From assembly GCA_029960885.1 (NCBI GenBank), contig JASBVV010000054.1:1-64000 (forward strand): a stretch of DNA of 64,000 bases. The letters are read 5' to 3'. The notes below the pieces were generated by a model. The model was not told where the DNA came from and searched no databases. It saw nothing but the letters and a program-made list of their open reading frames with translations. Below, one piece after another: positions 25,358 through 27,656 of this stretch. This stretch comes from Kyrpidia sp. (lineage in GTDB: Bacteria > Bacillota > Bacilli > Kyrpidiales > Kyrpidiaceae). The position numbers were made by a program, and so were the translations under genes. Numbering within the stretch: position 1 is the stretch's first letter; every line of letters begins with the position of its first letter.

Positions 25358-25483
25358 GAAAATAGGCCCCCTGTGGCGACAATTCGACCCATTCGCACCC
25401 GGACCGGCAAAACCGGCCCGTGCCGCCCTCCGTTTGCTCCACTTCTATGAGTGATTATTCTTCACGGAACCGCGAAAATCCTG

Positions 25484-25768
25484 TCAGAGGAACTTCGCCG
25501 CCGGCCCCCCGTCGACGGCCCGGTGATCGAACGTCAAACTGAGAGGCAACCGCTGCAGTTGCTCGATCCCCTTCTCGAACAACACGAGAAACGACTCCAC
25601 CCGGCCCACACCCAGCAGCGCCACTTCCGGGGCCGGAGGAACAGCCGTCTTCATACCGCCATCCGGCGCATCGGGCGCCAGAGCCCGCGCCCCGGCCGCC
25701 CGGCGCACATCTTCTTCGATGGGGCGTCCGCGGCGCCGCTCCCCTGTCGCGGACAGATCCACGCCCAA
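25484..25768 (-). pseudogene. Remnant of a dihydrolipoyl acyltransferase (E2)
   Basis: In one frame the sequence reads LGVDLSATG...GRPIEEDVRRAAG, the E3-binding (PSBD) domain, then jumps to APEVALLGVGRVESFLVLFE and LSLTFDHRAVDGGPAAKFL, the catalytic C-terminus with its HRxxDG motif, before a stop. The core of the catalytic domain (over a hundred residues) is missing between the two, as are the lipoyl domain and a start. This is a deleted fragment of an E2 such as those of acetoin, branched-chain or pyruvate dehydrogenase. It abuts the sigma-54 fragment. Confidence 0.8.
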
Positions 25769-25769
25769 G

Positions 25770-25961
25770 CAGGAAATAATTCGCCAATTCCGGAATGTCT
25801 TCTTTCCGTTCCCGAAGCGGCGGAACACGAATGGGCAGGACATGAATCCGGTAAAAAAGATCTTCCCGAAATTTCCCGCGCCGCACCAGATCCCATAGAT
25901 CCCGATGGGTGGCCGCAATCAACCAAATGTCGACGCGACTTTCTTTGCGCCCGCCCAGTGG
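25770..25961 (-). pseudogene. Fragment of a sigma-54-dependent transcriptional activator
   Basis: About 63 codons encode the middle of the AAA+ domain: LGGRKESRVDIWLIAATHRD, then REDLFYRIHVLPIRVPPLRE and ERKEDIPELANYFL. A stop lies just upstream in frame, and the frame runs into the E2 fragment near 25769. No start, Walker A, sensor or DNA-binding domain remains. Sigma-54 activators of the AcoR/BkdR type control acetoin or branched-chain dehydrogenase operons, so this and the E2 remnant may derive from one lost locus. Confidence 0.85.
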
Positions 25962-25968
25962 TCAATAA

Positions 25969-26181
25969 TGGATCGATACCACACCATGGCAAATATCCTC
26001 CGTTCGCCAACCGGCGACCTTGACACCGGACGATCATGCCCAGCACCCGGTCGGTCGAGTCGGCGTCCCGGAGGACATCGCCAGAGCCGTGTTGTTCCTC
26101 GCCTCCCGCGAGGCCGACTTTATCACGGGAACCCATCTCATTGTGGACGGAGGAATGACGGTCAAGATGATTTACGTCTGA
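25969..26181 (+). pseudogene. C-terminal fragment of a short-chain dehydrogenase (SDR)
   Basis: The plus strand encodes about 70 residues: [34 protein letters not shown] and [20 protein letters not shown], ending at TGA 26181. This is the canonical C-terminal third of a classical SDR. The Rossmann fold, the YxxxK active site and a start are absent; an in-frame stop lies immediately upstream at 25966. The fragment touches the oppositely oriented sigma-54 fragment with no spacer, marking a rearrangement junction. Confidence 0.85.
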
Positions 26182-26225
26182 AGGGACAGGCGGACACCGG
26201 TGACGTGGGGTGTTTCCGCGCCGGA

Positions 26226-26519
26226 CTAAAACTGCTCGCCTTGAGGTGGATACGACAGAATCGTGGTCAGGTAATGACCCAACTCAGTGGCCGTTTCGGG
26301 ATCCTCAATCCCGAAATGCTGGGCAATTCGCTGCGGATCTTCGGCGTCGTGGGCATCCATGATCGTCGCCCGCCCGGTCTGCAGGCACATCACAATGCTT
26401 TTGCCCATAAAATGCCGGGAATACGTCACCGCCACATCAAATCGCGTGCCGGCCACATCCAATGTGGCGTAATGGGTCCGGGTATCTTCCGTTTCCGAAA
26501 ACAGGATATGATCACCCAT
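26226..26519 (-). CDS. DUF3055/SAV0927-family protein
   Basis: The 97-residue protein (MGDHILFSETEDTRTHYATL, VAVTYSRHFMGKSIVMCLQT, IEDPETATELGHYLTTIL) matches, from memory, the DUF3055 family of Bacillota, whose function is unknown. ATG 26519 follows AAAAGGGGGG. It is the first intact gene downstream of the c-di-AMP riboswitch on this strand, about 150 bases after the terminator. A 23-codon frame ending three bases before its start is visible but lacks a ribosome site. Confidence 0.78.
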   Translation of the reverse strand: MGDHILFSETEDTRTHYATLDVAGTRFDVAVTYSRHFMGKSIVMCLQTGRATIMDAHDAEDPQRIAQHFGIEDPETATELGHYLTTILSYPPQGEQF

Positions 26520-26666
26520 CCGTCAATCCCCCCTTTTCAGTGTCGAACGCGGAAGGTACCCGCCGTTTCGCACGCCATCGGACTTTGCCATAGATTACGG
26601 CATTCCGGCGCACATCATGCACAGTACGGCTTCAACGACGGAGACGCGAATGTTCGAAAGAGACAC

Positions 26667-26713
26667 AAAAGCCTCGCCTCCTGTGACGTCCTTTGTCAAG
26701 GCGAGGGCTTTCA
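26667..26713 (-). terminator. Expression-platform terminator of the c-di-AMP riboswitch
   Basis: On the minus strand AAAGCCCTCGCC (near 26712-26701) can pair with GGCGAGGCTTT (near 26679-26669), followed by TTTTGTGTCTCTTT. It lies directly after the aptamer, the expected place for a riboswitch-controlled terminator. The 26520-26666 interval holds no supportable gene. Confidence 0.7.
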
Positions 26714-26729
26714 CCGTCGCTCCCTCGTA

Positions 26730-26866
26730 CGCTTGCGAAGTTAGCTGACGGGTTCGGGTGGAGAGCTCACCCTACCGGCCGGTGCGAACATTCTAAAATC
26801 TTCTGAGAACACCGGCCCAGATTCACCCCCTTCACGGGTCCTCCGCTTCCGAAACGGAACTCAGCG
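26730..26866 (-). ncRNA. c-di-AMP riboswitch (ydaO-yuaA type)
   Basis: Read on the minus strand the element contains the hallmark blocks of the ydaO aptamer: GAAGCGGAGGACCCG, GGGGGTGAATCTGGGCCGGT, CACCGGCCGGTAGGGTGAGC and CGAACCCGTCAGCTAACTTC followed by GCAAGCG, which closes with the 5' CGCTGA. The variable stem GCCGGTG/CACCGGC is well formed. This class binds c-di-AMP and usually switches off potassium transporters or cell-wall hydrolases. Here no such gene follows; the next gene is DUF3055. Recognition is from memory of the consensus, not from a covariance search. Confidence 0.88.
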
Positions 26867-26881
26867 TCTCCTGTTTCTCTC

Positions 26882-26910
26882 ATCATACATGAAAAAGGGA
26901 ATTTTGGCAA
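26882..26910 (-). promoter_or_regulatory. Sigma-A promoter of the riboswitch transcript
   Basis: On the minus strand TTGCCA (26910-26905) and TATGAT (26887-26882) are separated by 17 bases, ending about 15 bases before the aptamer. This indicates that the element is transcribed leftwards. Confidence 0.7.
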
Positions 26911-26943
26911 TCACCAATTCACCCGCGTGTGGGAGGGAACAGC

Positions 26944-27126
26944 ATGCATCCACTACCCGCTTCCATTGTGTCCTTGGCGGTGGCGATGGGCGCCGGACTG
27001 TTCCTGGGATTACATCCCCTTGTGGCCTTGGTGATCGGGGCGGGGTCCGTCGCCGGGGCCGCGGTGCTGCGCTCGGCTTACCAAGAGGTCGAACGCCGCT
27101 TTCGGGGAGCCCGTCCCCGCCGGTGA
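26944..27126 (+). CDS. Small two-segment membrane protein (60 aa)
   Basis: ATG 26944 follows GGGAGGGAAC. The 60-residue product has two short hydrophobic segments rich in Gly/Ala (ASIVSLAVAMGAGLFLGLHP, ALVIGAGSVAGAAVL) and a basic tail (VERRFRGARPRR). It resembles small Gly-zipper membrane proteins, but I do not recognise a family. It is transcribed away from the riboswitch. Confidence 0.5.
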   Translation: MHPLPASIVSLAVAMGAGLFLGLHPLVALVIGAGSVAGAAVLRSAYQEVERRFRGARPRR

Positions 27127-27185
27127 CCTCCGGGGCCGCCCCGCGGCCGGGCGCCGGCCCGCGGACGGCCCGCGCCCGACCGCCG

Positions 27186-27656
27186 TCATTCTCGGCCCAA
27201 CCTTCGCACATCCTCCAACACTTGCTCCATATGCCCGTCCACCTTCACCCGAGGGTACACTTTGCGCACCACGCCGTCACCGTCGATGAGGAACGTGGTG
27301 CGTTCGATCCCCATCGACTTCCGCCCATATTGATTTTTCTCTTTATATACCCCGTAGGCCGTGGAAACCGCCGCATCTTCGTCGGACAACAGCGGAAACG
27401 GCAATTGGTAGTTGTTTGCAAATTTTTCATGGGAAACCGGGGAATCGGTGCTGACTCCGAGGATCACCGCGCCCGCATCGGAAAACGCCTGATACAGATC
27501 GCGAAAGCCGCACGCTTCCTTGGTACATCCGGGCGTATTATCCCGGGGGTAGAAGTATAGCACCACCGTCCGCCCCCGGAGATCCGACAGGGTAATCGTC
27601 TCTCCGGAACCTGTGGGAAGCGTGAAATCCGGCGCTTTCTGTCCCTCTGCGACCAA
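27186..27656 (-). CDS. bcp: Thioredoxin-dependent peroxiredoxin (Bcp/PrxQ)
   Basis: The 156-residue protein has the peroxidatic cysteine in PRDNTPGCTKEACGF near residue 44, with the second Cys five residues later, the Bcp/PrxQ arrangement, and GVSTDSPVSHEKFANNYQL. It reduces hydroperoxides using thioredoxin. TTG 27656 is the start, supported by GAGGGGTGA. It stands alone. Confidence 0.95.
   Translation of the reverse strand: MVAEGQKAPDFTLPTGSGETITLSDLRGRTVVLYFYPRDNTPGCTKEACGFRDLYQAFSDAGAVILGVSTDSPVSHEKFANNYQLPFPLLSDEDAAVSTAYGVYKEKNQYGRKSMGIERTTFLIDGDGVVRKVYPRVKVDGHMEQVLEDVRRLGRE

Follow-up and report, generated by a model that had tools for sequence, protein, structure and literature searches.

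Which gene does a c-di-AMP (ydaO-class) riboswitch control when the only gene downstream of it is a DUF3055 homologue and the region beyond is made of gene fragments? This arrangement was found on the minus strand of a 64-kb stretch of Kyrpidia sp. DNA (the window), which sits in an incomplete 2.04-Mb assembly. Either DUF3055 is a new c-di-AMP-controlled gene or the switch has lost its gene, and the original prediction left both readings standing. We consider it likely, with good confidence, that a functional termination-type OFF riboswitch of this class controls the single gene DUF3055.

The riboswitch and its expression platform

When the whole window was searched with cmscan, RF00379 was the sole Rfam match. 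The hit on the minus strand (26876-26715) is a full-length c-di-AMP aptamer with an E-value of 5.6e-19, and its score of 87.2 bits compares with an Rfam gathering score of 38 bits; the covariance search thus agrees with the aptamer that had been predicted. The elements of the switch are as follows:

26882..26910, minus strand: promoter TTGCCA-17-TATGAT (promoter scan; all 29 bases the same in K. tusciae)
26715..26876, minus strand: c-di-AMP riboswitch aptamer, RF00379 (cmscan; 88 % identity to K. tusciae)
26760..26768, minus strand: loop GAGCTCTCC, in which GCUCUC could pair with GGGAGC 3' of P1 (putative pseudoknot)
26719..26727, minus strand: CGAGGGAGC, 3' pseudoknot strand, which could alternatively pair with CCCUCG of the terminator 5' arm (putative antiterminator)
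26664..26711, minus strand: intrinsic terminator, AAAGCC-CUCGCC...GGCGAG-GCUUUU (folding; compensatory change in K. tusciae)

The alignment spans model positions 1-134 of 134 with two non-standard pairs, and the aptamer has a long 36-nt apical stretch that is incompletely represented in the RF00379 model. The conserved blocks are GGGTGAA and CAGCTAAC. The GCUCUC/GGGAGC pairing agrees with the pseudoknot known for the c-di-AMP riboswitch class, and the two segments covary in relatives, where UCUCUUAA is matched with UUAAGAGA (genomes G037 and G053, see below). The promoter, which had also been predicted, was recovered at 26910-26882 directly upstream of the aptamer; the scan of 26200-27250 found no other promoter-like site, with 0.4 expected. 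The upstream neighbour of the switch is a PrxQ-type peroxiredoxin gene. As is usual for members of RF00379, the aptamer lies 5' of a same-strand gene and is followed by a terminator-like hairpin as expression platform, and then by DUF3055.

The terminator hairpin folds as originally described and is strong, with a moderately U-rich tail (UUUUGUGUCUC). A strict terminator scan returned only a weaker overlapping stem, which is within the shuffled expectation. The corresponding stem of K. tusciae is CCCCGCC...GGCGGGG, and a compensatory change from U-A to C-G keeps the pairing. When growing 3' ends were folded stepwise, alternative hairpins were observed at 26690 and 26680, and the terminator from 26670 on.

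From the aptamer to the DUF3055 start codon (26519) there are 195 nt, and from the terminator about 145 nt, in near agreement with the 210 and 150 bases of the original prediction. This long gap is not odd, because 143 bp separate terminator and start codon in the proven kdp switch of B. thuringiensis (PMC6488665). In the window, no further RNA element was found in the 137-nt leader past the terminator with permissive Rfam settings. If DUF3055 had its own promoter in this leader, the riboswitch would give only a short regulatory RNA. The leader is 77 % conserved and that of one relative (G067, see below) may contain a second promoter, which would fit such an arrangement; however, a sigma-70-type scan found no sigma-70-like promoter there in either the window or K. 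tusciae, and we regard a separate promoter as very unlikely.

The DUF3055 gene and its product

The gene is intact and is the next one on the minus strand after the switch:

26226..26519, minus strand: DUF3055/SAV0927-like gene, 97 aa (PF11256, E-value 2.3e-27; dN/dS about 0.09 against K. tusciae)

It has a well-matching Shine-Dalgarno sequence (AAGGGGGGA at 26535-26527). Its product matches PF11256 over positions 1-79 of 80 with 95.4 bits (cut-off 25). The dN/dS value, from the comparison of the window with K. tusciae, indicates purifying selection, and the gene is therefore not decaying.

A single-sequence structure model (pLDDT 73) gave the S. aureus SAV0927/DUF3055 structures 6iy0 and 8xfu as best fold matches (E-value about 1e-3, probability 1.0), of which 6iy0 was the best (probability 1.00, E-value 1.2e-3, TM 0.62); the search with this model found no other fold near these two. 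The predicted model thus places the protein in the SAV0927 fold. It belongs to the same family as SAV0927 of Staphylococcus aureus (PF11256; PDB 6iy0, 8xfu) and the predicted fold agrees, whereas sequence identity between the two proteins is about 22 %. DUF3055 proteins were found in at least 209 of the 301 Bacilli genomes sampled (about two thirds), and also in S. aureus. In most of the Bacilli checked, the PF11256 copies have no c-di-AMP aptamer nearby.

Conservation within Kyrpidia

The original prediction had proposed comparing what follows the aptamer in related genomes, and in both K. tusciae (G001) and Kyrpidia sp. EA-1 (G002) it is DUF3055. Aptamer, terminator and DUF3055 stand in the same order, with no gene between switch and DUF3055, so that the pair is present in all three Kyrpidia genomes compared. 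The chance expectation in Kyrpidia, counted as same-strand aptamer/PF11256 pairs in the right order within 700 nt, is about 0.001 pairs. Between the window and K. tusciae, identity is 100 % for the promoter, 88 % for the aptamer and 84 % for DUF3055; in the spacer upstream of the promoter it is 56 %.

Two other c-di-AMP riboswitches were observed in Kyrpidia. The second (L001:1501-1948, L070:5826-6262) is directly followed by a conserved ORF of about 100 aa with no Pfam match, possibly another non-classical target, and past this ORF lies a HIT/GalT-like gene (DUF4921/DUF4931). The third (L069:6976-7882, L003) precedes a gene for a secreted 3D-domain protein, a cell-wall target of the classical type.

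Recurrence in a second order

Among 41 relatives, the best c-di-AMP aptamer of genome G037 (118 bits) was found just 5' of a PF11256 gene; the other relatives that carry both aptamer and PF11256 showed no linkage. In G004, for example, the two elements are 7 kb apart and the switch precedes a gene for a secreted RlpA/3D-like protein. When the search was repeated with a subfamily alignment, G053, G067 and G081 were also linked among the matches listed, and cmscan placed RF00379 on the same strand upstream of DUF3055 in these three genomes with 111, 110 and 106 bits, respectively. The four genomes belong to two families of one order, represented by 14 genomes, which also contains Tumebacillus. 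From the full lists, 4 of the 28 PF11256 copies of this order are linked, in 4 of the 14 genomes, and the chance expectation is about 0.017 pairs; related genomes are not independent samples, and two separate orders are involved. The tree of DUF3055 copies has too little resolution to group or to separate the linked copies, which may have one origin or several.

The linked loci differ in detail. In the case of G053, the linked DUF3055 copy (L106:2590-2880) may be decaying, because a normal start codon is missing and there is an in-frame stop just upstream; two other copies are present in that genome. In G067, aptamer and DUF3055 are separated by a 450-nt gap that contains a short ORF and perhaps an additional promoter. 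This ORF (L103:2650-2810; about 49 codons, no Pfam match) is placed after the riboswitch terminator and before DUF3055. No clear U-tract terminator was seen in G081, where the switch may act on translation.

In G037, a 90-aa ORF located between the aptamer and DUF3055 was also considered as the gene under control. We rejected it, because it gave no match in Pfam and shares sequence with a terminator-like hairpin that has a U run; it is therefore probably leader sequence.

The genes 3' of DUF3055 vary by lineage: K. tusciae has acoR, G067 a histidine-kinase-like gene, G037 DNA-repair-polymerase and YolD-like genes or fragments, and G053 genes unrelated to aco. Judged by gene order, DUF3055 is the common factor across the linked lineages. 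Because the pairing recurs in other bacteria, DUF3055 is very probably a real c-di-AMP target and not a leftover.

Downstream remnants and the acetoin operon

The fragments noted past DUF3055 proved to be real. They include a short-chain dehydrogenase C-terminal end on the plus strand and two remnants, both outside the switch and found by tblastn with K. tusciae proteins (aco gene names were assigned from sequences):

25755..25961, minus strand: acoR remnant, sigma-54 activator, residues 364-432 of 540
25487..25630, minus strand: acoC remnant, acyltransferase subunit, residues 355-402 of 417

At the corresponding place in K. tusciae the acetoin operon acoR-A-B-C is intact, and by these matches the "graveyard" past DUF3055 is the remains of this operon. 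Positions 25455-26181 of the window are a deletion scar, in which the acoR and acoC fragments adjoin the opposite-strand dehydrogenase end.

Could AcoR, the sigma-54 activator, and the acetoin operon be the true target, lost here and present in K. tusciae? In that genome acoR begins about 250 bases past DUF3055 on the same strand. However, a terminator-like site lies between the two genes in K. tusciae, so the aco operon is probably not under the switch; in addition, the genes after DUF3055 in G037, G067 and G053 are not aco genes, and the window retains switch and DUF3055 despite the aco loss. We therefore hold AcoR and the acetoin operon to be a very unlikely target.

The degraded downstream region of the window genome would also suit a switch that lost its original target, with DUF3055 merely the next gene along. 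Against this stand the identical, gene-free order of switch and DUF3055 in the two other Kyrpidia genomes, the recurrence of the association in another order, and the position of the lost acoR-acoC beyond DUF3055 with a likely terminator before them. A lost target is accordingly most improbable. Thus, of the two branches of the original prediction, DUF3055 as a new target is supported, since the pair is conserved across Kyrpidia and recurs in a second order, whereas the loss of the controlled gene is contradicted, as no gene intervenes in G001 and G002 and DUF3055 is under purifying selection.

Proposed mechanism of control

With DUF3055 as the controlled gene, leftward transcription would start near 26875. 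At high c-di-AMP the aptamer would bind the ligand and fold, and the pseudoknot would take GGGAGC just 3' of P1; with the aptamer folded, the terminator would form and RNA polymerase would stop near 26660. At low c-di-AMP the GAGGG strand would instead pair with CCCUC of the terminator 5' arm as a predicted antiterminator, and the resulting read-through would allow DUF3055 to be made. The direction of control is predicted from the alternative pairing of CGAGGG with CCCUCG and from the earlier alternative hairpins, by which ligand binding would favour termination. Terminator-based OFF control is established for the c-di-AMP riboswitch class (PMC6488665). The genome carries two diadenylate cyclase (DAC-domain) genes and so has the capacity for making c-di-AMP. 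By analogy with other c-di-AMP switches, a drop in c-di-AMP would be expected under K+ limitation or osmotic stress.

Comparison with known systems

The riboswitch itself is ordinary; the novelty is its target. It shares aptamer sequence and structure, the terminator platform and a promoter directly upstream with the c-di-AMP (ydaO/yuaA) riboswitch RF00379, but the known targets named in the original prediction and in PMC6488665 are K+ transporters and cell-wall hydrolases, whereas here the target is DUF3055. The kdpFABC switch of B. thuringiensis (PMC6488665) has the same layout of aptamer, intrinsic terminator and about 140 nt to the start codon. Its OFF control is proven, while that of the window switch is deduced, and it controls a K+ pump operon, whereas the window switch precedes a single small-protein gene. 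A literature search by the names DUF3055, SAV0927 and PF11256, outside which the target list of the 2013 discovery paper falls, found no paper on the family. DUF3055 as a c-di-AMP target is apparently unreported, and its novelty is provisional.

DUF3055 may take part in osmotic or envelope physiology. More broadly, DUF3055/SAV0927 proteins, or at least this subgroup, could act in a c-di-AMP-governed osmotic, K+ or envelope response, a suggestion that we make tentatively and with somewhat less than even confidence. If they do, the riboswitch would be the first functional handle on a Bacilli-wide family with solved structures. The probable c-di-AMP control of some DUF3055 copies suggests the conditions under which the protein would be relevant, namely low c-di-AMP and, by analogy, K+/osmotic stress.
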